Part shown: positions 2,709 through 63,654 of the stretch, piece after piece
How positions within the stretch are numbered: position 1 is the stretch's first letter
Layout of the letters: each line of letters opens with the position of its first letter
NCBI RefSeq assembly: GCF_001723685.1
Contig: NZ_MCBX01000001.1
Coordinates: forward strand, 172,501-236,500
DNA: 64,000 nucleotides
Source: Candidatus Marithrix sp. Canyon 246
Lineage (GTDB): Bacteria; Pseudomonadota; Gammaproteobacteria; Beggiatoales; Beggiatoaceae
Reading direction: 5' to 3'
Program-made: the position numbers and the translations under genes
The notes under the pieces: model-generated
Told to the model about the DNA's origin: nothing
The model's database searches: none
What the model saw: the letters and a program-made list of their open reading frames with translations, nothing else

Positions 2709-2892
2709 GATAAAAAAATATGTTATATTATTATTTGTAGGTTTTATGTTAAGTGGATGTTTTTTAACTAAAGTTGTTACTGTTCCACTGCGTGTAGGTG
2801 GGGCTATAATTTCTGTAGTTCCAGTAGTTGGTGGTGCTGCTGATGAAGTTATTGATACTGTTGCTGATACTGTGGATAAGGTACCTTTATAA
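2707..2892 (+). CDS. Small putative lipoprotein (DUF6726-like)
   Basis: 61 aa starting at MIKKYVILLFVGFMLSGC. The basic start, hydrophobic stretch and lipobox LSGC predict lipidation of the Cys at about residue 18. The mature part is short and Val/Ala/Gly-rich (VVPVVGGAADEVIDTVAD) and resembles, from memory, small DUF6726 lipoproteins; function unknown. An upstream in-frame ATG at 2686 would put residues before the signal peptide and is less likely. An AGGT lies about 10 bases before the chosen ATG. The 3' end overlaps the convergent secretin gene by 6 bases. Confidence 0.7.
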   Translation: MIKKYVILLFVGFMLSGCFLTKVVTVPLRVGGAIISVVPVVGGAADEVIDTVADTVDKVPL

Positions 2893-4389: not shown

Positions 4390-5111
4390 TTTGGATTTTT
4401 CTTTACTTTAATAGTCTGGAAATCCATTGTTATACCATCAATTAATAATAATTGCCCTATTAAATTATTACCAATTCCTATAATGACTTTCATTGCTTCT
4501 AAGGCTTGTAAGCTGCCAATAATTCCTACCATTGGTGCTAAGATTCCAGTTTCAGTACAAGTTTCAACTATTTCTTGATTGTTTGGATATAAGCAACGAT
4601 AACAAGGAGTATTTTCTAAATTACTATTAAAAACAGATATTTGACCCTCCATACGTATTGCCGCGCCAGATATTAGTGGTGTTTTTGTTTGAACACATGC
4701 TTGATTAATCGCCAGACGACTTTTTAAATTGTCTGTGCAATCTAAAACAATATCTACTTTATTTACTGGTTCAATTAATGCTTGATGATCTAATTGTTTA
4801 TATAGTGGGGTAACTGTTATTGAGGGGTTTAGTGCTAATAAGCTTTCACGGGCTGAGTCAACTTTATATTTTCCAATGTTGTTGGTATTGTGAATAATTT
4901 GACGTTGTAAATTAGATTGTTCGACTTTATCAAAATCAGATATATATAAATGCCCAACACCAGCGGCTGCTAAATACATGGCGGCTGGTGAGCCTAAGCC
5001 GCCTAAACCTATAATTAATATTTTGGCGTTTAATAAACGTTGTTGCCCTTCTATACCAATTTCTGGTAATAGAATTTGACGACTATAATGTAGTAGTTCT
5101 GTATCATTCAT
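4371..5111 (-). CDS. moeB: Molybdopterin-synthase adenylyltransferase / ThiF family protein
   Basis: 246 aa E1-like enzyme that adenylates the C-terminal glycine of a ubiquitin-fold sulfur carrier (MoaD or ThiS). The nucleotide-binding loop is GLGGLGSPAAMYLAAAG (about 35-51), followed by the conserved SDFDKVEQSNLQRQ with its ATP-binding residues, DCTDNLKSR with the Asp near 129, and the zinc pairs CYRC and CPTC at the C-terminus. Length and ending fit MoeB/ThiF without a rhodanese domain. Context does not separate moeB from thiF. It is upstream of and overlaps mshL. Confidence 0.9.
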   Translation of the reverse strand: MNDTELLHYSRQILLPEIGIEGQQRLLNAKILIIGLGGLGSPAAMYLAAAGVGHLYISDFDKVEQSNLQRQIIHNTNNIGKYKVDSARESLLALNPSITVTPLYKQLDHQALIEPVNKVDIVLDCTDNLKSRLAINQACVQTKTPLISGAAIRMEGQISVFNSNLENTPCYRCLYPNNQEIVETCTETGILAPMVGIIGSLQALEAMKVIIGIGNNLIGQLLLIDGITMDFQTIKVKKNPKCPTCT

Positions 5112-5159
5112 ATATGATATTTTATCAGTAAATCTCTTTTTTTAACAATTTAATTTAAT

Positions 5160-6518
5160 ATGCGTATTACAATTTTTGGTTCTGGTTATGTTGGTTTGGT
5201 TACAGGCACTTGTTTAGCAGATGTTGGTAATCATGTTTTATGTGTTGATGTTGATGAGGATAAAATTGCTCGTTTACAACAGGGTGAGGTTCCTATTCAT
5301 GAACCGGGTTTGGCTAGTTTGTTAAAAGCAAATGCAGCGGCTGGGCGTTTAGAATTTACTACTGATGTAGCTAAAGGGGTGGAGTATGGTGATATTCAGT
5401 GTATTGCTGTAGGAACACCGCCTGATGAGGATGGTTCTGCTGATTTACAGTATGTTTTGCAAGTAGCTGATACTATTGGTAAACATATGAAGGATTATCG
5501 TTTGATTATGGATAAATCTACGGTTCCTGTTGGCACTGCGGATAAGGTGCGTGCTACGGTGCAAGCTGCATTAGATGAGCGCGGTGTTGAGCATGAGTTT
5601 GATGTGGTTTCAAATCCTGAATTTTTAAAGGAGGGAGCTGCTATTGATGATTTTATGAAGCCTGATCGTATTGTGGTTGGTACTGATAATCCTCGCCCTA
5701 GTGAGTTGATGCGGGAGTTGTATGCTCCTTTTAATCGTAATCGTGATCGGTTGCTGATTATGGATATTCGTTCGGCTGAATTGACTAAGTATGCTGCTAA
5801 TTCTATGTTGGCTACTAAGATCAGTTTTATGAATGAGATGGCGCATATTGCTGAGGAGGTTGGAGCTGATATTGAAAATGTACGTTTGGGTATTGGTTCT
5901 GATCCTCGGATTGGGTTTAGTTTTATTTATCCGGGAGCTGGGTATGGGGGTTCTTGCTTCCCGAAAGATGTGCAAGCTTTAACTAGAACCGCTCAGAAGA
6001 TTGGTTTGGATGCTAGTATTTTGCAGGCTGTTGAAAGCGTTAATAAGGAGCAACAGCAAGTTTTGTTTACTAAGGTGAGTAAGCATTTTGATGGGAATTT
6101 GCAGGGACGTAAGTTTGCTTTGTGGGGTTTGGCTTTTAAACCTAATACTGATGATATGCGCGATGCTCCTAGTCGTAAACTTATGGAGGCTTTATGGGAT
6201 GCGGGGGCTAGTGTTCAGGCTTATGATCCTGAAGCTATGTCTGAGGCGCGACGTATTTATGGTGATCGCGCTGATTTGCTGTTATGCGATAATCCTGAAG
6301 CTACTTTGGATGGCGCTGATGCTTTAGTTATTATTACTGAGTGGAAGCTGTTTAGAAGCCCTGATTTTGATTTTATTAAGTCTCGTTTGAACACTGCTGT
6401 TATTTTTGATGGGCGTAATCTTTATGAGCCTGATAGAATGCGTGAACGTGGCTTTGTTTATTATGCTATTGGACGTGGAACTCCCACAGTAACTCGATCT
6501 AACCCGGCTAAATCCTGA
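5160..6518 (+). CDS. ugd: UDP-glucose 6-dehydrogenase
   Basis: 452 aa. Oxidises UDP-glucose to UDP-glucuronate with NAD for surface polysaccharides. N-terminal Rossmann motif [18 protein letters not shown] (8-25), central dimerisation helices, catalytic Cys in [10 protein letters not shown] (about residues 261-270), and a C-terminal UDP-binding domain ([18 protein letters not shown]). Divergent from moeB with 48 bases between. The last 58 bases overlap the convergent prmC; both C-termini look natural. Codon third positions are more G/T-rich than in many neighbours. Confidence 0.96.
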
Positions 6519-8441: not shown

Positions 8442-9224
8442 ATGTTTAAACCTTTAATTCGTATTAGTGTTTTATCATGCTTGGTTTCTTTAAATGCTTA
8501 TGCAAAACCAGTAGTAACTATAAATGGCATTAGTCTGACTCAACAAGATTATGAGCAGTATGTTGAGATACGTAGCCAAAAAACTAAAACTAATGTTACA
8601 CCTGATAAGCGCACTATAATTGAGGAAATGATTGATCGCGAATTGTTGAGGCAAGATGCTCTTAATAATAAGTTGGATCAAGATCCTAAATTTATTGAGC
8701 AATTAAAACAGTTGCGTGATAATCTACTGATGTCATTTGCATTGCAGACTTATTTAGCAAACAATAAGATCACTGATGCTACTGTTAGAAATTTCTACAA
8801 TCAACGAATTACTCAAATTAAAATGCCGAAACAATATAAGGCACGGCATATTTTAGTAGAAACTGAAACTGAAGCTAAAGCAATTATTGCTGAAATTGAA
8901 AAAGGCAAATCTTTTGGTAAACTAGCAAAAGCAAAATCTAGTGATCTTGGATCAGCCAAACAGAATGGTAACTTAGGTTGGGTAACAAAACAAAAACTTG
9001 TACCTTCATTTGGTAATGCAATGGAAAAATTAGCCAAAGGTGAATATACTAAAACACCTGTAAAAAGTAGATTTGGTTGGCATATTATTAAAGTTGAAGG
9101 AATTAAATTTCAACAAGCACCTGCATTTAATCTGGTCAAGGAACAGATTAGAAATGGCTTACAAAGTCAACAAATGCAACAATATAGTTTTCAATTAAGA
9201 GCTAAGGCAAAAATTATTAAATAA
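8442..9224 (+). CDS. Periplasmic parvulin-type peptidyl-prolyl isomerase
   Basis: 260 aa. N-terminal signal peptide ending near NAYAKP, a SurA-like helical chaperone segment (residues about 25-125, with a conserved E-x-L-I-D-R-E-like region), then one parvulin domain (about 128-225: [22 protein letters not shown], and [10 protein letters not shown]). Assists folding of exported proteins. It belongs to the PpiC/PrsA-like group found after bolA in many gammaproteobacteria. The stop overlaps the dapE start. Confidence 0.9.
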
Positions 9225-10360: not shown

Positions 10361-11095
10361 ATGTCTAATTATAAAGTGCGTTTTTATAAAGGCGATTATA
10401 GATGGCGACAAAGACAAGCTAACCGAGATCGTTGTGTTGCTTATGTTGAGCAACATTTTAATGGTGCTGCTAATCGTCGTGCTGGTTATTCAATGGTAAT
10501 AGTAGGTTATCGTTCATCTCAAACTAGCCGCAATTGGGGGCGTTGGTATGCTCAACAAATAGGAAAAGTATTTAGTGTGCCAGTAGGTGGTAGAAGAGGC
10601 ATAAAGGTTGGAGGTTATGGTGGTCGTGGTAATGGTAATGTCAAACATACCAAGATGCCAGCGATTTTATTAGAGCCTTTATTTGGTAGTAATCCCCAAC
10701 ATGCCGAAATTATTCGTAGTAGCGCTGGACAAGATAAACTAGCTAAAGTCCTTGCTGATAGTATCATAGAAGCTTTTCCTAAAGGTGGTACTGTAGGTTT
10801 TAGTGTTGGGCATAAATATAAAAGCTCACGCCCTTGGGATCGAGGTGTACCAATTTATGGTGGTGGTACAGAAGCTGATTATGCCGAAATCGTAATGGAA
10901 AAGGCAAAGGCTTTATTAGAAGGTTATGATCCATCTAAGGTAGAAGAACCAAAGCAAGAAGATGATGATAAACCAGATAATGATATTCGTGTCATTAAAG
11001 ATGGTAAAGAAATCTGGTTACATACTGAAACAGATGAAGATGATAACATCCTTTGGGATGAAGAAAATCGTGTTTTATATATAAATACAAAATAA
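10361..11095 (+). CDS. Putative N-acetylmuramoyl-L-alanine amidase-like protein
   Basis: 244 aa, no signal peptide. Residues 1-150 suggest an Amidase_3-like zinc hydrolase: YVEQHFNGAANRRAG near 28-42 (compare the family's H-x-N-A strand), WGRWYAQQIG, and LLEPLFGSNPQHAEII, which resembles the catalytic-Glu strand E-x-x-F-x-S-N. A second conserved block, SVGHKYKSSRPWDRG, lies near 147. The last 50 residues are acidic and Asp/Glu-rich. A cytoplasmic or non-classically exported cell-wall hydrolase is the best guess. It follows dapE by 12 bases. Domain assignment is by eye and not certain. Confidence 0.5.
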   Translation: MSNYKVRFYKGDYRWRQRQANRDRCVAYVEQHFNGAANRRAGYSMVIVGYRSSQTSRNWGRWYAQQIGKVFSVPVGGRRGIKVGGYGGRGNGNVKHTKMPAILLEPLFGSNPQHAEIIRSSAGQDKLAKVLADSIIEAFPKGGTVGFSVGHKYKSSRPWDRGVPIYGGGTEADYAEIVMEKAKALLEGYDPSKVEEPKQEDDDKPDNDIRVIKDGKEIWLHTETDEDDNILWDEENRVLYINTK

Positions 11096-11105
11096 GTTCG
11101 TTCAA

Positions 11106-11138
11106 AGACCTGACAGGTTTTTAAAACCTGTCAGGTCT
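11106..11138. repeat. Palindromic repeat, GACCTGACAGGT family, long form (copy 1)
   Basis: 16-base arms AGACCTGACAGGTTTT and its complement around one T. Sits in the 45 bases between two convergent genes and could act as a bidirectional terminator. Other long copies are at 17195, 39594 and 63322; short copies at 34575, 41982 and 42135. Confidence 0.9.
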
Positions 11139-11140
11139 AA

Positions 11141-12378: not shown

Positions 12379-13790
12379 TAAATAAACAATTGCGTCAAAT
12401 CAACGCCAGTTTCTAATGTAGCAGCGGTTTGATTTGGAAAAATCATACTGCCGCTATTTGGCGCAATCCAATCACAAATTGGTGCAAATATGTGGTCATA
12501 TTCTGTTAATCCAGTAATATCAGGGCTATTATCATCTAATCTGGCTAGTTCTGCTTCTGGATACATATTTCCATAAATTCCACCATTGACACTATCGCCA
12601 ATTACTAAAAATGATGTGCCTCGCCCATGATCAGTACCATTATTACCATTTGCTTTTAATTGACGACCAAATTCTCCACCTATTAATAATACTGAATTTT
12701 GTCTTACTATTGCTGGAAGGTTTTGAGATAAAGCATCAAATGCTTTGTTGGTTCCAAATAAGTCACTAAAATTCTTTTCAATAGTTGATTTTTGATCTTT
12801 GTGCGTATCCCAGCCACCCATTGCTAATGATGCGGCTCGCAGATTCACAATATCATTAACTGCTAGACTATCATATAGATTTCTTATTTGTTTACCTAAA
12901 CCACGATTATTTAATACATTAGAACTACCAGCAGTATAAAGTCCTTCAATATTACTAGGAATAGGAAATTGACTTAAACGGTCATCAATAGCATCACCAA
13001 ACTTACGGGATTTAGATTCCATATCAGTAAATCGTTTATATATTGAGTCTGAAGCTATTTCTTCACGTTTAGCTGCATAATAAGCTCTGAGGCTTCTAGC
13101 TATACGCCCTGCATAAGTCTTTTCTTTGCCTGCTGAGGGATGATATAATCGCATTGTTCTAGTATCAGCCGCTGATATTACATTGGCATTAGAGCGTTGA
13201 CTCAGATTATTAGGATTTGGTCCAAAACAAAAATTTCGTGGGCTTGATGTCAATGCTAAAACATTACCATCAGTTACATAAGCTAATTTACCGCCCCAAC
13301 CGGGATTACCAGAATCATTACGCCCGGCATTGACATTACCCTGATCTTTAATCATTTGACAATAGGAATGATCGCGACTATTACTGCCAATAACATTATT
13401 GACAATTGCTAGAAAACCCTGATCCCACATGGTTTTTAACCATGTTGCTTCTTTAAGCAAACCAAAAGCAGTAGTACCATCAGTTAAATGGTAATAATCA
13501 TTTTCCCAACGTTGTTCCCAAGCGGTTGGATCATCCGATAAATTATGAGCTTGGGCATTTTCCTGCCAATAACGATAACCAAAACTATTAGGATCTGACT
13601 CATAAGGAGGTGGCATTAAATGCCGTAAATTTGGTCCACCATGTAACATCAGATCGACTAATACGCGACTACCAAGTGTTGGAAAGCCACCAACACTAGC
13701 ATGTGCTATTTGGTTAAATAATGAAAATCCACCAACGCCATAAAGTGCGCTGGAGACAAGTGTAGATTTAATAAAATTACGACGTTTCAT
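12378..13790 (-). CDS. DUF1501 family protein, Tat-exported
   Basis: 470 aa. N-terminus MKRRNFIKSTLVSS with twin Arg and a hydrophobic stretch up to Ala-His-Ala near 32 is a Tat signal. The mature part has the DUF1501 (alkaline-phosphatase-like fold) features LVDLMLHGGPN, GWDTHKDQ, LIGGEFGRQL and NNGTDHGRGTSFLVIG. Such proteins are nearly always paired with DUF1800, as here (2 bases apart). Substrate unknown; a periplasmic metal-dependent hydrolase is an inference from the fold. Confidence 0.88.
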   Translation of the reverse strand: MKRRNFIKSTLVSSALYGVGGFSLFNQIAHASVGGFPTLGSRVLVDLMLHGGPNLRHLMPPPYESDPNSFGYRYWQENAQAHNLSDDPTAWEQRWENDYYHLTDGTTAFGLLKEATWLKTMWDQGFLAIVNNVIGSNSRDHSYCQMIKDQGNVNAGRNDSGNPGWGGKLAYVTDGNVLALTSSPRNFCFGPNPNNLSQRSNANVISAADTRTMRLYHPSAGKEKTYAGRIARSLRAYYAAKREEIASDSIYKRFTDMESKSRKFGDAIDDRLSQFPIPSNIEGLYTAGSSNVLNNRGLGKQIRNLYDSLAVNDIVNLRAASLAMGGWDTHKDQKSTIEKNFSDLFGTNKAFDALSQNLPAIVRQNSVLLIGGEFGRQLKANGNNGTDHGRGTSFLVIGDSVNGGIYGNMYPEAELARLDDNSPDITGLTEYDHIFAPICDWIAPNSGSMIFPNQTAATLETGVDLTQLFI

Positions 13791-16628: not shown

Positions 16629-17236
16629 TGAAAAAATTATCCATAGTAGTTCTTATTTCTGGGCGTGGTAGTAATTTAAAGGCTATTATTGATGTTGCTA
16701 ATCCTTTAGTTAATATTAGTGCTGTTATTAGTAATCGTCCAGAAGCTGCTGGTTTAATTTATGCTGATGAAGCTGGAATTAGTACTGAGGTTTTGGATCA
16801 TAAGGATTTTGCAACGCGATTAGAATTCGATTCTGCGTTACAGGAATGTGTTGATAAGTATGATCCGCAATTAGTTGTATTGGCTGGGTTTATGCGTATT
16901 TTAAGTCAGGGGTTTGTTAGGCATTATAAGGGGCGTTTAATCAATATTCATCCGTCTTTGTTGCCAAAATTTAAGGGTTTGGATACTCATAAACGCGCTA
17001 TAGAAGCAGGTGAGAAGGAACATGGGCTTAGTGTACATTTTGTGACAGAGGAGTTAGATGCTGGGGAGGTTATTCTTCAGGCACGGGTTCCAATATTAGC
17101 TGATGATACTGAAGAAAGTTTAGCTGCACGAGTTTTGCAGCAAGAACATAAGATTTATCCAGAAGCTATACAGTTATTTGCAGAATCGGGTTTTAGACCT
17201 GACAGGTTTTTAAAACCTGTCAGGTCTGATAATTAA
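16628..17236 (+). CDS. purN: Phosphoribosylglycinamide formyltransferase
   Basis: 202 aa. Transfers formyl from 10-formyl-THF to GAR. LISGRGSNLKAIID binds the phosphate, ISNRPEA and the catalytic block INIHPSLLPKFKG (Asn-His), and SVHFVTEELDAG (Asp) are all in place. The last residues, RPDRFLKPVRSDN, are encoded almost wholly by a GACCTGACAGGT palindrome (17195-17227), so the natural C-terminus has been replaced or extended by repeat sequence. Confidence 0.96.
   Translation: MKKLSIVVLISGRGSNLKAIIDVANPLVNISAVISNRPEAAGLIYADEAGISTEVLDHKDFATRLEFDSALQECVDKYDPQLVVLAGFMRILSQGFVRHYKGRLINIHPSLLPKFKGLDTHKRAIEAGEKEHGLSVHFVTEELDAGEVILQARVPILADDTEESLAARVLQQEHKIYPEAIQLFAESGFRPDRFLKPVRSDN
17195..17227. repeat. 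Palindromic repeat, GACCTGACAGGT family, long form, inside purN (copy 2)
   Basis: Same 33-base palindrome as at 11106, here read through in frame as the tail of PurN (R-P-D-R-F-L-K-P-V-R-S); the stop codon lies 7 bases beyond it. May also terminate or stabilise the purMN transcript before the caspase-like gene. Confidence 0.9.
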
Positions 17237-17252
17237 TCAATGAGGCATTAAA

Positions 17253-18200
17253 ATGAAAAATTTTATTTTAATATTAGTAATACAGTTTTTTTTGCTGTCT
17301 AATTCTTTGGCGGCTAATTTTCATGCGATTATTATTGCTGATACTAATGATAGCACTATTGGTAGTAGTGTTATTATTGATAAACGGAAAATTAATACTT
17401 TCACTAAAAATATTGCTAGAAATACTGGTTTAATATTAAGAGAGCAAAATATATATGGTTATAATTTTAATTTTAATACTATAAAGCGTAGTTTAAATAG
17501 TTTGTCAGTTAGGCGGGATGATGTTGTGATGTTTTATTATTCTGGTCATAGTAGTAATGCTGGGGCTAAATGGCCAGCGTTAAATTTGAAGGGGCGTTCT
17601 TTGAAATTAGATAATGTTATTTCTAGTTTAAAGGCTAAAAAACCTCGTTTATTATTAATCATTGCTGATAGTTGTAATAATCTTACTAGTCGCGGTTCAA
17701 GTTTAAATAGTTTTATGAGTTTACGAGGTGTTCAGACTGCTAAAAAGGAAAATTATCAAAAATTATTTTTAAAACATAAAGGGATTATCGTTATGGGGGC
17801 GGCTCGTCGGGGAGAATATGCTTGGGGTAATGGTCAGCATGGTGGTTTTTTTACTTATCAATTGTTAGAAAGTTTAAATACAGAGCTTGCTAGTTCTTCT
17901 CCAAATTGGAATCAATTAGTTAAACGTGCTGAAGTCCCAATACGTTTGCCTAATGGTATTGTGCAACACCCTCAATCTGAAGTCAGGATTAAAAACTTTC
18001 AGAAAACCCGTCCTAATCTTGTTCCTTCAGGTATAGAAAAATGTTATTATTATTATAATAATAAAGGTGATCTTTGTTGTCGTAAATCTAGTGGAACTAC
18101 ATGTGAACAAGCAACAATCAGAGGTGAATGTCCCTATTATTTCTATAATAGAAAAGGTTACTTATGTTGTCGTCGTTCAACAGGTATTACATGCGAATAG
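17253..18200 (+). CDS. Secreted caspase-like (peptidase C14 / metacaspase-like) protein
   Basis: 315 aa. Signal peptide 1-20 (…SNSLAA), then a caspase p20-like domain: FHAIIIADTNDS, DDVVMFYYSGHSSN with the catalytic His near 96, and RLLLIIADSCNNLTS with the catalytic Cys near 138. AARRGEYAWGN and GGFFTYQLLESL (about 183-210) are typical of prokaryotic C14 proteins. The C-terminus holds two tandem ~25-residue Cys-rich repeats (CYYYYNNKGDLCCRKSSG and PYYFYNRKGYLCCRRSTG). Predicted to act outside the cytoplasm; substrate unknown. 16 bases after purN; overlaps the convergent acetyltransferase gene by 14 bases. Confidence 0.8.
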   Translation: MKNFILILVIQFFLLSNSLAANFHAIIIADTNDSTIGSSVIIDKRKINTFTKNIARNTGLILREQNIYGYNFNFNTIKRSLNSLSVRRDDVVMFYYSGHSSNAGAKWPALNLKGRSLKLDNVISSLKAKKPRLLLIIADSCNNLTSRGSSLNSFMSLRGVQTAKKENYQKLFLKHKGIIVMGAARRGEYAWGNGQHGGFFTYQLLESLNTELASSSPNWNQLVKRAEVPIRLPNGIVQHPQSEVRIKNFQKTRPNLVPSGIEKCYYYYNNKGDLCCRKSSGTTCEQATIRGECPYYFYNRKGYLCCRRSTGITCE

Positions 18201-24597: not shown

Positions 24598-26262
24598 TCA
24601 GTAACCCAATGCCAGCCCTTGTTGTCTTGGATCGTGACTTCCATATAATGTATTTTGATCAATTAAGATACTGGCTGCTGCACCCATTGTATTTTTCACT
24701 ACTACTTTGTGTCCCTTTTCTGTTAATAACTTAATGGTATCAAGGCTCAATCCTTCTTCGATTCTAATCTCATCTGGCAACCATTGATGGTGAATTCTAA
24801 CTGCATTTGTGGCTTCTTGAATATTCATCTTGTGATCAATAACGTTCAGAATTACTTGTAAGGTGGTGGTAATAATTCTTGAACCGCCGGGGCTACCGGT
24901 TATGATAAAAGGTTTTCCGTCTTTTAGCACAATGGTTGGTGACATGGAACTTAACATCCGTTTCTGGGGTTGAATGGCATTAGCTGTACCACCAATTAAT
25001 CCATAAACATTGGCTACCCCGGGTTTGGCACTGAAATCATCCATTTCATTATTCAGTAAAAATCCCGCGCCGTTGACTACAATGCCGGAACCGAAACTAA
25101 AATTGATAGTGTAAGTATTGGAAACCGCATTACCTTCTTTATCAACCACAGAATAATGTGTGGTTTCATTACTTTCGTAATGAGTTGGATTACCCAATGC
25201 TGCTGCATAAGCTTTAGAAGTTAAACCTGTTAGAGGCACGGATACAAAATCTGTATCACCTAAATATTTTGATCTATCGGCATAAGCACGTTTCATAGCT
25301 TCAGCCATCAGATGGATAGTTGCGGCAGTGTTATGTCCCAATAAACCAATGTCATAATTTTCCAACATGTTCATAATTTGCACAATATGAACTCCCCCAG
25401 AACTGGGTGGAGACATAGAATAAATATCATAACCCCGATAAGTACCATGAATCGGTTTTCTTATTACGGGCTGATACTTGGCTAAATCTTTTTTGCTAAT
25501 CAAACCGCCATGCGCTTCCATGTCTTTGACAATCAAATCAGCAATTTGTCCTTCATAAAAGGCTTTAATACCTTGTTTAGCAATTGCTTTTAAGGTATTG
25601 GCAAGATCGTTTTGCACAAAGCGATCACCTGCTTGATAAAAGCTGCCATCAGCTTTAAAAAATATAGCGGCGGTTGTCGGGTGCTGGTTGAGATGTTTTG
25701 CTCTCTTTTTAATATCATTACTAAATGCACGGGTGATGATAAAGCCTTTTTCAGCTAAGGCAATTGCTGGTGCTAATGCTTCTGCCAACGACAATGTACC
25801 ATATTTTTCCAATGCCATTGCCATACCCGCGACAGTACCGGGTACTCCTGCCGATAGGTAACTAAATCGACTTAAATTGGAATCAATATTGTCTTTTTCA
25901 TCAAGGAACATATCCCGCGTTGCCTTGAGAGGTGCTTTTTCGCGGTAGTCAATCGCAATGACTTTTTTCGTTTTGGCAGAATAGATCAGCATGAATCCGC
26001 CGCCACCAAGATTACCCGCCCGAGGATAAGTAACAGCTTTTACAAATCCAATTGTTACCGCTGCATCAACGGCATTACCGCCTTTCTGTAAAACTTCCAC
26101 GCCAATTTGTGCCGCCATTTTCTCAGCCGTAACTACCATGCCATGCGTAGCGATAGTTGGGGTAAAAATATCTCGTTCACTGATAATGGCAGTTTGTGCT
26201 ATGCTTAATGTGGCAAACATCAATGATGTTGCCGCAACTGATACTCTAAATAAATATTTCAT
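24598..26262 (-). CDS. ggt: Gamma-glutamyltransferase
   Basis: 554 aa periplasmic N-terminal-nucleophile hydrolase/transferase acting on glutathione. Signal peptide 1-22 (…LSIAQ). The self-cleavage point is before the Thr of ETTHYSVVDKEGNAVS; other active-site phrases are DYREKAP, PPSSGGVH, NTYTINFSFGSG, LLNNEMDDF and SMSPTIVLKDGKPFIITGSPGGS. Length normal. Upstream of dnaQ-polA, presumably transcribed with them. The 149-base upstream gap shows no further gene. Confidence 0.95.
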   Translation of the reverse strand: MKYLFRVSVAATSLMFATLSIAQTAIISERDIFTPTIATHGMVVTAEKMAAQIGVEVLQKGGNAVDAAVTIGFVKAVTYPRAGNLGGGGFMLIYSAKTKKVIAIDYREKAPLKATRDMFLDEKDNIDSNLSRFSYLSAGVPGTVAGMAMALEKYGTLSLAEALAPAIALAEKGFIITRAFSNDIKKRAKHLNQHPTTAAIFFKADGSFYQAGDRFVQNDLANTLKAIAKQGIKAFYEGQIADLIVKDMEAHGGLISKKDLAKYQPVIRKPIHGTYRGYDIYSMSPPSSGGVHIVQIMNMLENYDIGLLGHNTAATIHLMAEAMKRAYADRSKYLGDTDFVSVPLTGLTSKAYAAALGNPTHYESNETTHYSVVDKEGNAVSNTYTINFSFGSGIVVNGAGFLLNNEMDDFSAKPGVANVYGLIGGTANAIQPQKRMLSSMSPTIVLKDGKPFIITGSPGGSRIITTTLQVILNVIDHKMNIQEATNAVRIHHQWLPDEIRIEEGLSLDTIKLLTEKGHKVVVKNTMGAAASILIDQNTLYGSHDPRQQGLALGY

Positions 26263-26411
26263 GATTTTTTTCCTTGTGTTTTTAAAATGCCTTTAATTTG
26301 TTGTTTAAACAACTTATATTTTACATCCATATTAATTACTATGGCTTTTCCAATATTGTAAAATATTACACGCTTTTATCAAAAAATACAAGAACAATTT
26401 TACTTATTTCA

Positions 26412-26594
26412 CTACGCCATATTTGCATGATGTTGAATAAGATTTCCTAAAGTGCGTAAGGCATGATTGACATCTTCTGAACTCGGAAACATAGCAGCTA
26501 CATCATCATCAAGCCGAGCTATATTCGTACCTTCTTTATACTGCGCTGCATACTTTCCTCGAACACCATTTGAAAAATCATATTCATCCAACAT
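26412..26594 (-). CDS. Antitoxin-like small protein (orphan)
   Basis: About 60 aa from the ATG at 26594 (the frame is open to 26657, but that extra part lies in the 131-bp repeat and does not resemble the family). MLDEYDFSNGVRGKYA followed by EGTNIARLDDDVAAMFPSSEDVNHALRTL is a pattern of small DNA-binding antitoxin-like proteins, often with a BrnT-, HigB- or PIN-type toxin. No toxin is next to it, so it may be a remnant or act alone. Confidence 0.6.
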   Translation of the reverse strand: MLDEYDFSNGVRGKYAAQYKEGTNIARLDDDVAAMFPSSEDVNHALRTLGNLIQHHANMA

Positions 26595-26615
26595 ATCTTG
26601 ATCTTTACTAAGATA

Positions 26616-26746
26616 AATTGGTATTTTTAGTTGAACTATTCGCGCTGGAATTGCCAAAATAACGATAATTAAATTGCATAATGTAATATTCCCATTAAAA
26701 TAGAAAATACTTCTCCTGTATCTTCTGGAATCGTATGACTATGAAT
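26616..26746. repeat. 131-bp perfect direct repeat (left copy)
   Basis: Identical, base for base, to 29392-29522. Covers the last 25 codons of the PD-(D/E)XK-like gene and the region upstream of the antitoxin-like gene. Together with the right copy it brackets the ATPase/TOPRIM pair and most of the nuclease gene. Confidence 0.95.
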
Positions 26747-27292
26747 ATTTTTGATTATATGTTTGTTTTTACGATCTAAAATGCCGAATTTCCATATATC
26801 TCCCAAGGTAACTGCACCATAAATGTATTCAATCTTTTCATTGTCTTCAAGTTTATCTAGGGCAATTAATTCTGCAACCAGTTGATTAAAACCGTTATCT
26901 ATATCTTTTTTCTTGGCTTCTATTATGATTAAATCTTGGTTTGCTATTAAAAGGTAATCTAATAAACCACTTAATTTATCATTCACATTAAGTGAATATT
27001 CAATATTAATTGTAATGTCGGATGTTCTAGCAATTTCAAGCAATAGTGGTGCTACCAAAAACTCTCTTTTAGCCATTTCAGAGTTTAAGTTAATTTTAGG
27101 TAAAATAGTATAGTAAGTCTCTTGGAGAGTTTTAACAAAATCTTTATCATAATCACTATATTTTGGTAGCTGCATCACCTCAAAGGCAAAAGAATAGCCA
27201 AATTCCGCTGCAATTTCCTTTGTAGGGTGATTCATTTCAAAGTAATCACTAAAAGTGTATTTTTTGTTTTTTTTGAAAATTGATGTTTTCAT
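26669..27292 (-). CDS. Putative PD-(D/E)XK family nuclease
   Basis: 207 aa. The core LSGLLDYLLIANQDLIIIEAKKKDIDNGFNQLVAEL (about 110-145) fits a PD-(D/E)XK nuclease: Asp in GLLDYLL, Glu-x-Lys in IEAKK, then a Gln in the following helix. No DNA-binding or transposase domain is seen. Such small nuclease-fold proteins are frequent in filamentous sulfur bacteria and cyanobacteria; role unknown, possibly defence or repeat-associated. Divergent from the ATPase gene with 98 bases between. Its 3' end lies inside the 131-bp repeat. Confidence 0.65.
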   Translation of the reverse strand: MKTSIFKKNKKYTFSDYFEMNHPTKEIAAEFGYSFAFEVMQLPKYSDYDKDFVKTLQETYYTILPKINLNSEMAKREFLVAPLLLEIARTSDITINIEYSLNVNDKLSGLLDYLLIANQDLIIIEAKKKDIDNGFNQLVAELIALDKLEDNEKIEYIYGAVTLGDIWKFGILDRKNKHIIKNIHSHTIPEDTGEVFSILMGILHYAI

Positions 27293-27390
27293 AATTTTAT
27301 TATGTTAATTCAATATTATATCATATTTTAATAAAACTACAAGGATATGATATAATCATAGCTTCGCTGACTGTACATAGCTAATAAAAT

Positions 27391-28710
27391 ATGATAACTT
27401 ACATTAAAATCAACGGCTTCAAATCTTTCCATGATTTTGAAATGGAATTTACGCCTTTTACAGTGGTTGCGGGAACAAATGCTTCAGGGAAAAGTAATTT
27501 GTTTGATGCTTTGAAATTGTTGGGAACTTTGGCAGAAACCGATAATATCAAAAAAGCGTTCAAAGAACAACGAGGAGAGTTTATTGAACTATTTACTCAG
27601 TATGATGAAAATAACTATGCTACTGAGATAGAGTTTGCCGTAGAGATGCTAGTCAATAGAAAAATAAAAGATTCTTGGGGCAACGAAGCCAAGCTCAAAT
27701 ATACCAGATTACGCTATGAACTCAAAATTAAACGTTTTACCAATTCTTTAGGCATAGAAAATTTGGCAGTGACTTATGAACATTTGGAAAATTTAAAACC
27801 TCAAAAAGATAAATGGGCTAAGCTGTTATCTAAAAATATAGTTGAAAATTGGCTACCAAATGTAAAGAAAGGAAAAAGGACTATTCCCTACATAAAAACT
27901 GAAATTGAAAATAACATACATATTGTACTTGTTCCTCAAGATGGCGTGCGAGGAGTTAATAAAAAACGTTTTCCACTCAATAACGCCACTAGAACCGTTT
28001 TAAGTAGTTTTGATACTATCGATTTTCCGCATGTTCTTGCTGTTAAAGAAGAAATGCGTAGTTGGAAATTTTTACAGCTTAATCCCGAAGACTTACGACA
28101 ACCTACTAATAAAAATATGGGAGATGATGTCATTTCTGAAAGCGGTAAAAATTTAGCAGCGGTTCTACATCGCATCAAACAAGAAGACATATATACTTTA
28201 AGAGAAATTTCACGGGAATTTCAAACATTTTTACCCAATTTTGTTGAAGTTGATGTGATAGATGACACTGAAAACAAACAATATCTTATCAAATTAAAAG
28301 ACAAAGATAAAAAAGAATATACCTCAAGAGTACTTTCGGAAGGCACTTTGCGAATTTTGGCATTGTGTATTTTAGAATACGATAATAAATATAGTGGCTT
28401 ATTGTGTTTTGAAGAACCTGAAAATGGCATAAACCCTTTTAATATTGAGACAATGGCAAAATTACTAAAATGTTTAAGTGTAGATTTTACAAATATTGAA
28501 ATGCCTTTGCGTCAGGTAATAGTTAATACACATTCACCAGTGTTAGTTGGTCATATTAATCATTGGAAACATGATAATAATGTAAGTATTTGGTATGCTG
28601 AAATTAGGAGTAGAGTTACAGACATTAAGAATTGCCGTTGTATTGTAAGTGTGACAAGCATTTTACCCGTGATTAAAGAAAAATATGTGCAATTAATGCT
28701 TAATTACTGA
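27391..28710 (+). CDS. AAA family ATPase, OLD/AbiL-like (defence-type)
   Basis: 439 aa. SMC/RecF-like AAA_21/AAA_15 ATPase: KINGFKSFHDFEMEFTPFTVVAGTNASGKSNLFDAL (Walker A about 28-37), signature-like VLSEGTLRILALCIL (about 316-330), Walker B LLCFEEPENGINP, and the His switch NTHSPVLV. It is followed by a TOPRIM-like protein, as in AbiLi/AbiLii and related two-gene phage-defence modules; that function is inferred from family and context. The C-terminus after W-H-K-H is short and may be decayed. Stop codon overlaps the next frame. Confidence 0.75.
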   Translation: MITYIKINGFKSFHDFEMEFTPFTVVAGTNASGKSNLFDALKLLGTLAETDNIKKAFKEQRGEFIELFTQYDENNYATEIEFAVEMLVNRKIKDSWGNEAKLKYTRLRYELKIKRFTNSLGIENLAVTYEHLENLKPQKDKWAKLLSKNIVENWLPNVKKGKRTIPYIKTEIENNIHIVLVPQDGVRGVNKKRFPLNNATRTVLSSFDTIDFPHVLAVKEEMRSWKFLQLNPEDLRQPTNKNMGDDVISESGKNLAAVLHRIKQEDIYTLREISREFQTFLPNFVEVDVIDDTENKQYLIKLKDKDKKEYTSRVLSEGTLRILALCILEYDNKYSGLLCFEEPENGINPFNIETMAKLLKCLSVDFTNIEMPLRQVIVNTHSPVLVGHINHWKHDNNVSIWYAEIRSRVTDIKNCRCIVSVTSILPVIKEKYVQLMLNY

Positions 28711-29362
28711 AGGTAATACTGATATTCGTTTTTTACAGAGTATAGTTCAAAAAACATTAGAAGCGGTTGCCTTTGATTGTTCTGGGCAGTTTGATATTGA
28801 ACTGAATCCAATAAAAATTAATAAAACTGGTTTAGGTTTTATTGAACAGGTATTAGAAGCCTCGAAAAAAGGTCAAGAAGATTTTGGTATGATGATTCTT
28901 TGTGTACAAACAGATGCTGATAGAAAACAACTCAATGATACTTATCAACATAAAATTAATCCTTGTCAAGTTGAATTGGAAAAACAAAATGAAAATCAGT
29001 ACTGTAAAATATTAGTTGCAGTAGTACCTATCCAAGAAACAGAAGCGTGGATGTTAGCAGATAAAGAATTACTAAAAAAAGAAATTAACACTGATGAAAC
29101 AGATATTAAATTAGGCATTCACAGGGCACCAGAAAGCATTGCGAACCCAAAAGAGGTAATAGAAAACGCTATTCGAGTCACAAGAAAAAATTTAACGAAA
29201 AAGAGAAGACGTAATTTGAGCATTTCAGACTTATATTTGCCCATTGGGCAAGGTATGGATTTAAAAAAATTAGAAAGTTTAGCTTCTTATCAAGATTTTA
29301 AAGAGAATATAAAAAAAGCTTTTAGAAAGTTAAATTTACTACACAACAAGCACAATAAATAA
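28697..29362 (+). CDS. TOPRIM/DUF4276-like nuclease partner of the ATPase (start unclear, possibly frameshifted)
   Basis: Open frame of 221 codons. It begins LITEGNTDIRFLQ, the conserved TOPRIM Glu, and has ILCVQTDADRKQ with a D-x-D motif near 70, then VAVVPIQETEAWMLADKE, which is typical of DUF4276/AbiLii-like proteins. No ATG, GTG or TTG precedes the Glu motif in frame; an in-frame TAA is at 28694. An ATG ten bases before the motif (28697 minus one) is in the ATPase frame, one base out, so a single-base change or a re-initiation at the overlapping ATGCTTAATTACTGA is likely. The first in-frame ATG (28889) would drop the TOPRIM Glu. Confidence 0.6.
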   Translation, partial: CLITEGNTDIRFLQSIVQKTLEAVAFDCSGQFDIELNPIKINKTGLGFIEQVLEASKKGQEDFGMMILCVQTDADRKQLNDTYQHKINPCQVELEKQNENQYCKILVAVVPIQETEAWMLADKELLKKEINTDETDIKLGIHRAPESIANPKEVIENAIRVTRKNLTKKRRRNLSISDLYLPIGQGMDLKKLESLASYQDFKENIKKAFRKLNLLHNKHNK

Positions 29363-29391
29363 AAACCCTGACATTTTACCACAAGATTTTG

Positions 29392-29522
29392 AATTGGTAT
29401 TTTTAGTTGAACTATTCGCGCTGGAATTGCCAAAATAACGATAATTAAATTGCATAATGTAATATTCCCATTAAAATAGAAAATACTTCTCCTGTATCTT
29501 CTGGAATCGTATGACTATGAAT
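29392..29522. repeat. 131-bp perfect direct repeat (right copy)
   Basis: Identical to 26616-26746. Here the last codons of the nuclease gene are fused in frame to an unrelated upstream segment. Confidence 0.95.
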
Positions 29523-30148
29523 TGGTAATTTTAAGTCTGGATATTGCGTATGTAAGTCACACATGGCTAGAATAAATTTTTCTTTATCCGTAATTGCATT
29601 ATATTGTAATAATTCGGCAAATAATCGCGCTACTTGTTTGTTTTTTTGAGCTTGAGTTTTTTGCCATCAATAACACCGCTTTAGCAAAGCATATCATTTT
29701 ACAATTATTTTAATAAATTTACGCGCATTTTGATAAAAATTCAATTCCTAAGCCTTGTACTTCTATTGCTGGGTGCTTAATTAAATCTTCAATCACTAAG
29801 AAATTTTTGGCAATAAATCCTTCATCGGATTAAACAATACCCAACGCAGCTTGTATTTTACAAGCAAATTCATGTACCAATTCACATAAACTCTGTTGCA
29901 ACAGATTAAATGCTAACTCTGGTTTTTGATCCCATAATTCTGGATAAGCCTCAGTACGATTTGGTTCAGGATCATTGTTCTTGAGTTGCCAACAAATTCC
30001 AGTCTTCAATAATCATGAGTTGTGGTTTTAGGTTTACTATCTTGATCATTAACCAGTTTTAAAATCGCCGCTGCCATGTCAACATAACGAGGATCTCCAA
30101 TGTCACCCATATTTTTCAACATTCGCCAAGCACGCCGACGAATTAAAA
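29445..30148 (-). pseudogene. Gene debris: repeat-fused ORF fragment and HEAT-like protein remnant
   Basis: Minus-strand fragments with several stops. Nearest the repeat, about 70 codons (beginning QKTQAQKNKQVARLFAELLQ) run into IHSHTIPEDTGEVFS, the C-terminus of the nuclease gene at 26669. Further upstream (about 29990-30148) is RRRAWRMLKNMGDIGDPRYVDMAAA..., which resembles HEAT-repeat proteins of the WGR/MolR-type; the rest is frameshifted. Nothing here looks expressed as an intact protein. Confidence 0.6.
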
Positions 30149-30149
30149 G

Positions 30150-30166
30150 TTGTCTGATTCAGACAA
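30150..30166. repeat. Short palindrome TTGTCTGATTCAGACAA
   Basis: Perfect 8-base arms around one T at the edge of the debris; the sequence resembles dispersed TCTGATTCAGA-type repeats. Only one copy was seen here. Confidence 0.6.
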
Positions 30167-30172
30167 ATGAGT

Positions 30173-30192
30173 TAATTAACATATGTTAATTA
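30173..30192. promoter_or_regulatory. 20-bp perfect palindrome upstream of DUF2141 gene (possible operator)
   Basis: TAATTAACATATGTTAATTA, centred on CATATG, 54 bases before the DUF2141 ATG. Its symmetry suggests binding by a dimeric regulator; low complexity makes chance possible. Confidence 0.35.
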
Positions 30193-30246
30193 CATTATTA
30201 TATCATATATGCTAACATCAACTTTCAAAAATTCAAAAGGTGATTT

Positions 30247-30657
30247 ATGAAAAAAGTAATTTTATTATCTTCTATATTGTTAGTATCCCCAAAAATATTT
30301 GCAGCCGATATAAATATTGACATATCAAATATCAAAAGTAACACCGGCAACCTTATTATTGGTTTATTTAACTCGAAAGATAGATTTTTAACAGACAAGT
30401 ATAAAGCCTTAAAGATAAAGGCTCAAGTAGGCTCTATTAATGGTAAATTTGAAAATATTCCAAATGGAACTTATGCAATTGCTTTGTATCACGATGAAAA
30501 TATGAATAACAAATTGGACAAAAACCTCTTCCATATACCAAAAGAAGGATATGGCTTCTCAAACAATGCAAAACCCTTTTTTGGACCACCCAAATTCAAT
30601 AAAGCTCAATTTAAACTTGATGGCAATTACCATGCTCAAATTAATATGAAATATTAA
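30247..30657 (+). CDS. DUF2141 domain secreted protein
   Basis: 136 aa. Signal peptide 1-20 (…PKIFAAD), then the DUF2141 pattern: NTGNLIIGLFNSKDRFLTD, FENIPNGTYAIALYHDENMNNKLDKN, IPKEGYGFSNNAKPFFGPP. A small beta-rich periplasmic or extracellular protein of unknown function. Alone, between island debris and rplM. Confidence 0.92.
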   Translation: MKKVILLSSILLVSPKIFAADINIDISNIKSNTGNLIIGLFNSKDRFLTDKYKALKIKAQVGSINGKFENIPNGTYAIALYHDENMNNKLDKNLFHIPKEGYGFSNNAKPFFGPPKFNKAQFKLDGNYHAQINMKY

Positions 30658-30670
30658 TTTGAAAAAAACC

Positions 30671-30698
30671 TGCAATAAAATTTTAATTATAATATAAT
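30671..30698 (+). promoter_or_regulatory. Probable promoter of rplM-rpsI
   Basis: TGCAAT at 30671-30676, 16 bases, then TATAAT at 30693-30698; a second TATAAT overlaps at 30688. The ribosomal operon starts about 40 bases downstream, with GGAG before the ATG. Confidence 0.5.
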
Positions 30699-30738
30699 AG
30701 CCTGTTATCTTATTTATTATACTATTGGAGTAACGCTA

Positions 30739-31173
30739 ATGAAAACCTTTAGCGCAAAGCCTCAAACCGTTAAGCATGATTGGTTTATCATGAATGCTGA
30801 AAATCTGGTTTTGGGACGGCTAGCGACTGAAATTGCAAGACGTTTACGTGGTAAGCATAAACCTGAATATACACCACATGTTGATACTGGTGATTATATT
30901 GTTGTAATTAATGCTGAAAAGGTGCATGTTACTGGTCGTAAGAAAACCGATAAAATGTATCATCATCATACTGGTTATCCCGGTGGTATTAAGTCCATTA
31001 GTTTTGAAAAATTGATGGTTAAAGCACCAGAACGTATTCTTGAAAAAGCAGTAAAAGGCATGTTACCTAAAGGTCCTTTAGGTCGTGCTATGTTTAAAAA
31101 ATTAAAAATTTATGCAGGTTCTGAACATCAACATGATGCGCAAAAACCTACACCATTAACTTTAAATAGCTAA
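30739..31173 (+). CDS. rplM: 50S ribosomal protein L13
   Basis: 144 aa, near the standard 142. [70 protein letters not shown] are canonical. GGAG lies 8-11 bases before the ATG. Two bases separate it from rpsI. Confidence 0.98.
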
Positions 31174-33401: not shown

Positions 33402-33444
33402 AGGATATATCAAATTAAGCAAACAGCTACTAGCTTAGTGAGTT

Positions 33445-33517
33445 ATTTATAACTATATTCTTTTATTTTATCATCATAAAATTCCACTTTACCTATAATA
33501 TCTCTTCCAACCTGTTG
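33445..33517 (-). pseudogene. Degenerate copy of a small secreted-protein gene 3' end
   Basis: Minus strand encodes GKVEFYDDKIKEYSYK-stop, matching 34604-34656; relative to that copy about 75 bases are deleted in the middle. Confidence 0.6.
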
Positions 33518-33584
33518 TATATCAATACTGATATAATCCAGATACCACAAGTACTAATTCACTAACTCAAAGTATATTTTTATT

Positions 33585-33912
33585 ATGCAACCAAATAACA
33601 CTATGAAAATAAACGAAAAAATAAAATTCATTCGCTCACTAAAAAGTTGGACGCAAGAACAAGTGGCTGATACATTAGGAATAAGTACTCATGCATGTAA
33701 ATTTTTCTAGGTAACAACAATTTGCTGAGATAATGGAAATAGATTTGTTACAGTTACTGAGTTTCGATGAAAAAAATATATTTAATTTTAATGAATATAA
33801 CTCTCAATCTCATATTGTTTTTCAAGTTAATTCTTCAATGCAACAATCAGAAAACAAACATGACACGAAGAAAGCAATAATGTTCTGGAATTATTGTAAT
33901 AATCAGATTTGA
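33585..33912 (+). pseudogene. XRE-family regulator, internally deleted (copy 1)
   Basis: Starts MQPNNTMKINEKIKFIRSLK then WTQEQVADTLGISTHA, a helix-turn-helix start, but the reading frame ends at 33713. After a shift the frame resumes as QQFAEIMEIDLLQLLSFDEKNIFNFN, the usual continuation. About 10 residues of the HTH (recognition part) are missing and a stop replaces the Leu of SRLQQ. Same lesion as in copy 2 at 35155. Confidence 0.7.
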
Positions 33913-34589: not shown

Positions 34590-34603
34590 TATAGCTTGAG
34601 TAT

Positions 34604-34795
34604 TTATTTATAACTATATTCTTTTATTTTATCATCATAAAATTCCACTTTACCTGCTCCATAAATCTCAACACCTACATAAACCCATTCCGCATGTGGT
34701 TGAACATATATATGAGGGGTATAATATCTCTTCCAACTTGTTGTTCCTTTTATTCTTTTGCCCCATTTGGTGTTTATATATTTCTTTTGTTTATT
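34604..34795 (-). pseudogene. 3' fragment of a small secreted-protein gene
   Basis: Minus strand encodes about 60 residues without a start: KYINTKWGKRIKGTTSWKRYY..., HAEWVYVGVEIYGAGKVEFYDDKIKEYSYK. It is probably the missing C-terminal half of the truncated ORF at 34852. Confidence 0.6.
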
Positions 34796-34851
34796 TTGTA
34801 AAAAAATAGGGTGTGACCGTAATTTGATGTTGATTTTTATTATGGGTGGGT

Positions 34852-35052
34852 TTAGCTAGTGTAACTCACTGTAGGGTGTATAAGCGAAGCGTCATACACC
34901 CTACTTTTGACTTTTCCATCCTTTTTTAGATAAGGAACTATAGACTTTATTCCACCATCATCTAAATCACCCCAATAATAATACTCTTTTTCTTTAGCAT
35001 AAGACGTTGTACTTATAACAAACAATACAAATAACAAAAGTGTTTTCTTCAT
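34852..35052 (-). CDS. Small secreted protein, truncated by a palindromic repeat
   Basis: 66 aa. Signal peptide 1-19 (MKKTLLLFVLFVISTTSYA), then EKEYYYWGDLDDGGIKSIVPYLKKDGK. The last 16 residues (RVYDASLIHPTVSYTS) come from the palindrome at 34871, and the original continuation seems to lie at 34604-34795. Function unknown; no known family seen. Confidence 0.55.
   Translation of the reverse strand: MKKTLLLFVLFVISTTSYAKEKEYYYWGDLDDGGIKSIVPYLKKDGKVKSRVYDASLIHPTVSYTS
34871..34904. repeat. Palindromic repeat, GTAGGGTGTATAAG family, inside a small ORF
   Basis: 34 bases bounded by GTAGGGTGTAT and ATACACCCTAC around AAGCGAAGCGTC. Translated in the truncated secreted protein. Confidence 0.85.
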
Positions 35053-35154
35053 TTCAATTTTCCTATTGTGATAAAGTTGGTATTATAAATAATAATATTA
35101 GTATAATCCAGATACCAGAAGTACTAATTCACTAACTCAAAGTATATTTTTATT

Positions 35155-35477
35155 ATGCGACCAAATAACACTATAAAAATAAACGAGAAAATAAAATTCA
35201 TTCGCTCACTAAAAAGTTGGACGCAAGAACAAGTGGCAGATAAATTAGGAATAACTACTCATGCATGTAAATTTTTCTAGGTTGCAACAAATTGCTGAGG
35301 TAATGGAAATAGATTTGCTACAGTTACTGAGTTTAAATTATTTGCTTTACTTCATCAATGGAACAATCCGACAACAAACATGACACGAAGAAAGCAAATT
35401 TAATGAATGAGCAATTGCAAAAAGAAGTGGAATACTTGAAAGAAATTACAAATAACTTATTGCTTATTAAAAAATAG
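35155..35477 (+). pseudogene. XRE-family regulator, internally deleted (copy 2)
   Basis: MRPNNTIKINEKIKFIRSLK, WTQEQVADKLGITTHA, then the same premature stop as copy 1; the continuation SRLQQIAEVMEIDLLQLLS is intact in another frame. A third frame ends with a coiled-coil-like tail (EQLQKEVEYLKEITNNLLLIKK) typical of this regulator family. Adjacent to the ClpB-like gene end. Confidence 0.7.
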
Positions 35478-38727: not shown

Positions 38728-39588
38728 ATGACCTTAGAATATTTAATGAAACACTATCAACAAAGAGTTGATAAACAATTAGATTTATGTTTACCATTTG
38801 CTAACATTAATCCTAGTCGTTTACATGAAGCGATGCGTTATTCAGTATTTAATGGTGGTAAAAGAATACGCCCATTATTAGTTTATTTAACTGGTAAAGC
38901 ATTAGGTGTTGATGATATAGCTTTAGATGCGCCGAGCTGTGCGGTTGAATTAATTCATGCTTATTCATTAGTGCATGATGATTTGCCTGCAATGGATGAT
39001 GATGATTTACGTCGCGGCAAACCTAGCTGTCACAAAGCTTTTGATGAGGCAACTGCTATTTTAGCAGGGGATGCTTTACAAAGTTTGGCTTTTGAGCTGT
39101 TAAGTCATAATTCAGAAATGATTAAAACACTAGCAGTTGCTATTGGATCACGTGGAATGGTAGGTGGTCAAGCTATTGATATAGCTGCGATTGGACAGTC
39201 TTTAAATATCGCTGAATTAGAAAATATGCACATTCATAAAACCGGTGCTTTAATTCGTGGCTGTGTAAAAATGGGTGCATTAGCTTCTGAAATGATTGAT
39301 GAAAATTTATTAAATAAATTAGATCATTATGCTAAATGTATTGGTTTAGCTTTTCAAATTAAAGATGATATTTTAGATATAGAAGCCAATACTGAAACAC
39401 TAGGAAAAACCCAAGGTGCTGATCTTGCTAATGATAAAGTAACTTATCCTTCTTTATTAGGATTAACTGGTGCTAAAGAAATGGCGACAGAATTAATTGC
39501 AGATGCTATAAATAGCCTTAATGATTTGGATCAGAAGGCTGATCCATTACGATGGATGGCTAGTTATATTTTAAATCGTAATTATTGA
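38728..39588 (+). CDS. ispA: (2E,6E)-farnesyl diphosphate synthase
   Basis: 286 aa polyprenyl synthetase. FNGGKRIRPLLVYLTGK, first Asp-rich motif DDLPAMDDDDLRRGKPSCHK, second motif IKDDILDIEANTETLGKTQGADLANDK. Makes C15 isoprenoid for quinones and undecaprenol. No xseB or dxs neighbour. A palindrome follows 5 bases after the stop. Confidence 0.96.
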   Translation: MTLEYLMKHYQQRVDKQLDLCLPFANINPSRLHEAMRYSVFNGGKRIRPLLVYLTGKALGVDDIALDAPSCAVELIHAYSLVHDDLPAMDDDDLRRGKPSCHKAFDEATAILAGDALQSLAFELLSHNSEMIKTLAVAIGSRGMVGGQAIDIAAIGQSLNIAELENMHIHKTGALIRGCVKMGALASEMIDENLLNKLDHYAKCIGLAFQIKDDILDIEANTETLGKTQGADLANDKVTYPSLLGLTGAKEMATELIADAINSLNDLDQKADPLRWMASYILNRNY

Positions 39589-39593
39589 TAAAA

Positions 39594-39626
39594 AGACCTG
39601 ACAGGTTTTTAAAACCTGTCAGGTCT
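39594..39626. repeat. Palindromic repeat, GACCTGACAGGT family, long form (copy 4)
   Basis: Immediately 3' of ispA; identical 33-base core to 11106. Confidence 0.9.
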
Positions 39627-39934
39627 AAAACTTCAAAATTCAAAATTAAACCCAATACTTATTGAATGTATAGAATCTGTATGCTGACCAAATATCATAT
39701 CAGTTCTATATGTTATTATCTGGTTCCCATCCTATATTTGAGCTTAGCCCTATTAGATTTTATGATTCTACACCATAATTAAAATATCCATATTTCCTGA
39801 CATTACTTGCTGATAATAACATACGCCCAGCATAATGATATACACTGTTACCATCAAGAGAGCCATATCCAAAGTGTGGTCTAAATAATTTAGCTGATTT
39901 TTCTTCTGTATATTTCAGCGCGTTTTTGTAATTC

Positions 39935-63317: not shown

Positions 63318-63321
63318 ATAA

Positions 63322-63354
63322 AGACCTGACAGGTTTTTAAAACCTGTCAGGTCT
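63322..63354. repeat. Palindromic repeat, GACCTGACAGGT family, long form (copy 7)
   Basis: Five bases after the metG stop. The following 63355-63654 region has no gene: a short AGCCCTGAAGGGCT palindrome (63399-63412) and a run of ten C (63454-63463) are the only features. Confidence 0.9.
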
Positions 63355-63654
63355 AAAACCCGATTGCTTCCTTAATAACTAATATGATTTAATTTTAAAG
63401 CCCTGAAGGGCTATTCAAAATCAAAATACCACTATATTATCCCCATTTCAACTCCCCCCCCCCACATTATAAGTTGTGCCTAGTTCTTCTCTCCGGTTTG
63501 GTGAGTTTAATTATTGAGCAAAATTATGCTATAATAAAATTGAAGCTACAATACCTAAGAATGGTAAATTATATTTGGATGCTTTGCCTTTTGCTTAAGC
63601 TGCTAAAAAATTCCAAGCTTGTATAAAAAAATGTGAAGGATATTTAACACCGCT

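Follow-up and report, generated by a model that had tools for sequence, protein, structure and literature searches.

A probably inactive HEC-01-type ATPase-TOPRIM pair next to a 131-bp repeat of probable local duplication in Candidatus Marithrix sp. Canyon 246

Do perfect direct repeats around a set of putative defence genes mark a unit that was gained as a whole, or are they the trace of another event? The question is raised by a locus in the window, the 64,000-nucleotide stretch of DNA analysed here, which a preliminary description read as a gained or mobile defence unit bounded by its repeats. The best explanation overall, given a probability of about 0.8, is that a HEC-01 pair was broken by a 110-bp deletion and that the repeats were left by a separate local duplication. 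The locus is an ordinary one with a clear decay story.

Layout of the locus

The two repeats are identical over exactly 131 bp and the nuclease, ATPase and TOPRIM-like genes lie between them, both as first described. The features are the following.

26412–26657, minus strand: small ORF on the left side of the nuclease gene, for which the compared loci gave no homologue
26616–26746: left copy of the perfect 131-bp direct repeat, made up of the 3'-terminal 78 bp of the nuclease gene and a further 53 bp downstream
26669–27292, minus strand: PD-(D/E)XK-type nuclease gene, full length against its homologues, of a multicopy family and outside HEC-01
27391–28710, plus strand: HEC-01A-type ABC ATPase (PADLOC PDLC04184, 1.1e-137), about 30 C-terminal residues lost according to the alignment
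28696–28706, plus strand: junction of the 110-bp deletion joining the ATPase and TOPRIM genes, from the DNA alignment with the relative L006
28697–29362, plus strand: startless HEC-01B-type DUF4276/TOPRIM-like frame (PADLOC PDLC04212, 8.5e-86), first ATG/GTG/TTG at 28889
29385–29405, plus strand: left bracket of the right repeat copy, GATTTTGAATTGGTATTTTTA
29392–29522: right repeat copy (131 bp), most plausibly the derived one and bracketed by AATTGGTA at 29392 and 29520
29513–29533, plus strand: right bracket of the right copy, GACTATGAATTGGTAATTTTA
29523–30170, minus strand: debris, consisting of a frame-broken remnant of a gene of about 1060 aa (about 29740–30140) and a short orphan fragment adjoining the repeat

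The TOPRIM ORF listed as 28889–29362 is only the C-terminal part of the frame open from 28697. The repeat copies display 100% identity at a spacing of 2776 bp, and the next-longest direct repeat in the same 12 kb is 37 nt at 70%, which places the 131-bp repeat far beyond chance. The outer side of the right copy is, as had been noted, fused in frame to debris, with ...YPDLKLPI before the junction and HSHTIPEDTGEVFSILMGILHYAI followed by a stop after it. When searched with a longer query that spans the repeat, the genome gives matches at three places: the two copies themselves and, outside the window, an identical 63-bp piece (G000:C22:248833-248895). The latter lies on the same contig at a distance of about 50 kb, in a decayed copy of the nuclease gene. 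All three places are tied to the nuclease 3' end, and the repeat was rejected as a dispersed element. No Rfam match to a structured RNA was found across 26000–30800. The 63-bp tract of locus L004 (12333–12395) is 100% identical to window 26688–26750, while the rest of that decayed nuclease copy is at 88–89%; this hints at gene conversion, with the caveat that the nuclease end holding the tract is also somewhat more conserved in relatives.

Identity of the ATPase-TOPRIM pair

The locus holds a two-gene candidate defence pair of the HEC-01 type. The ATPase matches the HEC-01A profile PDLC04184 with 457.8 bits over residues 1–434 of 439, and lower PADLOC scores are obtained with the next-best HEC-01A subfamily (142.6 bits), AriA (94.9), AbiLi (61.0) and Old (44.7). 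The partner, in the open frame 28697–29359, matches the HEC-01B profile PDLC04212 with 285.5 bits. In Pfam the ATPase corresponds to AAA_21/AAA_15 and the partner to DUF4276, at 28.1 bits just below the cut-off of 30.2. A TOPRIM-like partner lies directly downstream of the ATPase in seven relatives taken from genome contigs (a Parabeggiatoa, several Bacteroidetes and a cyanobacterium) and in three relatives of the same family. The pairing is thus real, since the relatives all carry the partner. The preliminary description had named ATPase homologues that never have a TOPRIM partner as a ground for refutation, and the relatives do not bear this out. The earlier proposal of a defence-type ATPase-TOPRIM pair is borne out by the HEC-01A and HEC-01B assignments of genes that stand side by side in relatives. 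The window pair shares with the PADLOC-DB candidate system HEC-01 the same two genes, order and orientation, and HEC-01 profiles give its best matches by a wide margin. It differs in carrying a 110-bp deletion across the gene boundary and in being probably inactive; as its two genes are not both intact, it is filed as a decayed HEC-01 relic and not as a working member.

The HEC set is attributed in PMC12988326 to Payne et al. 2024 (bioRxiv 10.1101/2024.01.29.577857), and several HECs including HEC-06 are antiviral according to this 2026 paper on archaeal immunity (PMC12988326). Among the papers searched, none testing HEC-01 and none mentioning DUF4276 was found, and the text matches to HEC-01 were unrelated.

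Among known systems, PARIS (AriA ATPase and AriB Toprim nuclease), a proposed Class 4 OLD (PMC10568477), similarly places an ATPase and a Toprim nuclease on two adjacent genes. In contrast to PARIS, the window ATPase scores far lower with AriA than with HEC-01A, and its partner matches HEC-01B and DUF4276 with no AriB match among those listed; the pair was not assigned to PARIS. OLD proteins of Class 1/2 also combine an ABC ATPase with a Toprim domain, although in one polypeptide, and the Old profile gives the low score reported above. The two activities occupy separate frames in the window and separate genes in relatives, and membership of OLD was likewise rejected. MAD3 of MADS is a related ATPase, whose NCBIfam score of 179.7 bits is far under the curated cut-off of 420. 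Intact relatives of the pair would probably act like a split OLD or PARIS, with the ABC ATPase sensing infection and the TOPRIM nuclease as the effector, in analogy to OLD, Gabija and PARIS, where an ATPase sensor controls a Toprim nuclease (PMC10568477).

Structural comparison is no more than suggestive of a Toprim-like fold in the modelled partner. The matches to the Toprim regions of OLD are weak: 6nk8 gives Z 6.9 (rmsd 4.5, 173 residues aligned) and 6njv gives Z 6.3 (rmsd 5.1, 169 aligned), and the rows of higher Z are other, unrelated alpha/beta folds. The model of a relative's TOPRIM protein has a pLDDT of 88, and the E and DxD motifs are conserved. A Foldseek search of the TOPRIM model against the PDB gave no significant match, and no convincing sequence relative was found in the PDB for the TOPRIM, the ATPase or the nuclease.

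The neighbouring nuclease

The nuclease, which the preliminary description had put forward as a possible third component, matches PADLOC PD_DExK (9.3e-29) and belongs to a multicopy family with 14 matches in its own genome and up to 50 in relatives. Its dN/dS of 0.075 against the homologue L045 indicates strong purifying selection. None of the HEC-01 relative loci contains a nuclease match and none of the nuclease relative loci contains a HEC-01 match. Thus, of the suggested co-occurrence of three genes, the ATPase and TOPRIM genes do recur together but the nuclease is never alongside. It was rejected as a third component of HEC-01 and is a neighbour of the pair, not a partner.

The 110-bp deletion

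The alignment of the window with its closest relative, L006, reveals a lesion in both genes of the pair that the preliminary description had overlooked. DNA identity is 86% up to 28705 (L006 3335) and 83% again from 28700 (L006 3440), and thus 110 bp are absent at 28700. The ATPase is reduced to 439 aa, versus 457–474 in the seven relatives, by the loss of about 30 C-terminal residues. In these relatives the TOPRIM gene has a separate start, located from 8 nt before to 12 nt after the ATPase stop codon. The deletion removes the TOPRIM start codon and most of the first strand, which spans residues 2–11 in the structure predicted for the TOPRIM-like protein of a relative and leads into the invariant E11-G12-T14-D15. 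The remaining frame has no ATG, GTG or TTG before 28889, a position beyond the invariant EG.TD motif. The pair is probably inactive, as follows from the shortened ATPase together with a TOPRIM frame lacking a start before EG.TD.

Several features count against this reading. The TOPRIM frame is open for 221 codons without a stop, and the lesion is therefore either recent or tolerated in part; ATT at 28703, a rare start codon, could in theory serve. The dN/dS values against L006 (0.22 for the ATPase and 0.27 for the TOPRIM) are such that selection acted for most of the divergence. Compared with 0.066 for the ATPases of L050 and L051 they are raised, a mild sign of decay to be read with the stop that L006 itself has in its TOPRIM gene.

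For the pair to be active still, the short ATPase would have to work and the TOPRIM part to be made in one of two ways: translation reinitiates at ATT 28703, or a +1 frameshift yields a fusion with the ATPase that resembles single-chain OLD proteins. The TOPRIM frame is indeed +1 to the ATPase frame, both are open over 28697–28707, and the EG.TD and DAD motifs are retained. However, the frame lacks a standard start codon, a slippery site is not evident, and in the EPENGIHPF motif the ATPase has N in place of the H of the seven relatives. Deletions in the TOPRIM part have also damaged the only other HEC-01 copy found in the same genome (L056) and that of the sister species (L057). An active pair is considered very improbable. 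The same holds for a new architecture in which the deletion is no lesion but a transition from a split to a fused system, with the short ATPase and the startless TOPRIM frame joined into one OLD-like product through a +1 frameshift or through reinitiation. What looks like a defence module bounded by repeats is better read as a decayed representative of an already known candidate family. Annotation by profiles might nevertheless score the locus as a complete HEC-01 system, because both profiles match well.

Separate lesions in the TOPRIM genes of related genomes are located at L057 7524–7988, L056 4079–4540, L006 3724 and L051 about 8600–8650, and include deletions, a stop (L006) and a frameshift near the start (L051). 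The TOPRIM genes of HEC-01 relatives from other phyla are intact.

Origin of the right repeat copy

The first 8 bp of the repeat, AATTGGTA, are present at 26616, 29392 and 29520. The last of these is positioned at the outer edge of the right copy, within a 21-nt imperfect direct repeat. A second AATTGGTA at this edge is natural if a segment entered a pre-existing AATTGGTA site next to the TOPRIM gene. The pre-insertion right flank would then have read TOPRIM gene, GATTTTGAATTGGTAATTTTAAG, debris, without the 131-bp insert. In a local event, separate and recent, at least 131 bp of the nuclease 3' end would have been copied to the far side of the pair. One route would start with a tandem duplication of 2776 bp bounded by two AATTGGTA sites, after which a deletion at a TGAAT microhomology took away most of the second copy; the other would be a templated insertion of 131 bp that used the same AATTGGTA sites. 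Both routes give exactly the observed sequence and are indistinguishable here. Tandem duplication followed by deletion, as in general bacterial genome decay, shares with the locus the direct orientation, the short distance and the junction microhomology. The difference here is that only 131 bp of the second copy are left, at 100% identity.

The preliminary description took the repeats as the ends of a recombination unit, through which the segment with the nuclease and the ATPase-TOPRIM pair enters or leaves. Most of the three genes are indeed bracketed by perfect direct repeats, and 131 bp is enough length for homologous recombination; excision of the segment by this route could in principle occur. 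However, the nuclease gene's own end lies inside the left repeat, HEC-01 relatives share the two genes only and never the repeats or the nuclease, and direct repeats of this sort occur at many places in the genome. The second AATTGGTA is moreover left to chance; for a unit brought in through recombination of ancestral repeats with each other it would be a coincidence of about 0.0036, the chance of TGGTA after AAT in the window. No comparable flanking repeats were found around the 12 HEC-01 relative loci, some of which have short flanks, and the similarity to L006 extends from the ATPase start codon to the vicinity of the TOPRIM stop. A recombination unit is considered unlikely, and the claim of a gained or mobile unit gives way to that of a local duplication, in which the repeats are a by-product and did not bring the pair in.

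The empty site is deduced from the 8-bp bracket only. The search of 42 family genomes, 398 genomes of the phylum and plasmids gave no homologue of the orphan fragment beside the right repeat, and no relative that retains the right flank as it was before the duplication. The sister species G001 was rejected as a source of the empty site: the neighbours ggt (left) and rplM (right) lie on different contigs there, and the region is thus not syntenic.

Direct repeats across the genome

Repeat pairs of at least 60 bp, at least 85% identity and 250–6000 bp apart were counted in genome samples. The 491 kb sampled from the same genome contain 31 direct and no inverted pairs, and 400 kb of the sister species contain 29 direct and one inverted. 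Of the two further genomes of the family that were sampled, G028 displays a similar density (18 direct and one inverted in 200 kb) and G003 does not (two direct, no inverted). Several pairs are collinear pieces of one duplicated segment, whose second copy has lost parts and is otherwise 90–100% identical. The 131-bp pair is the sole one in the sample with at least 100 bp at 99% identity or more, and is therefore probably the youngest of the same kind. Because segments in this genome have often been duplicated locally in direct orientation, with copies that then eroded, even a perfect direct repeat does not on its own point to a mobile element here.

The right copy could also be an error of assembly, the genome being a 44-contig assembly with an estimated contamination of 3.8%. 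In contrast, the flanks on the two sides of the copy are distinct and show microhomologies typical of real rearrangements, and the many diverged local direct repeats cannot be assembly errors. An artefact is held to be just as unlikely as a recombination unit.

Further duplications of varied layout were observed. In L056 (G000:C10) a decayed HEC-01 copy (2520–4168) is duplicated downstream (4768–5509) as a shrunken collage of about seven pieces, 90–100% identical, with the stretches between the pieces deleted. In L004, moaD-moaE is duplicated about 2 kb apart (10488–11045 and 12553–13176), each copy with different internal deletions, and the nuclease remnant carrying the 63-bp tract adjoins the second copy. 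The window itself holds another local duplication in direct orientation, at 33431–33877 and 34592–35397, split into several unequally spaced pieces of 91–96% identity. In addition, a dispersed sequence of 33–44 bp occurs in both orientations across the contig, 97–100% identical between most copies, including window positions 11104–11140, 17184–17254, 39568–39631 and 63320–63365.
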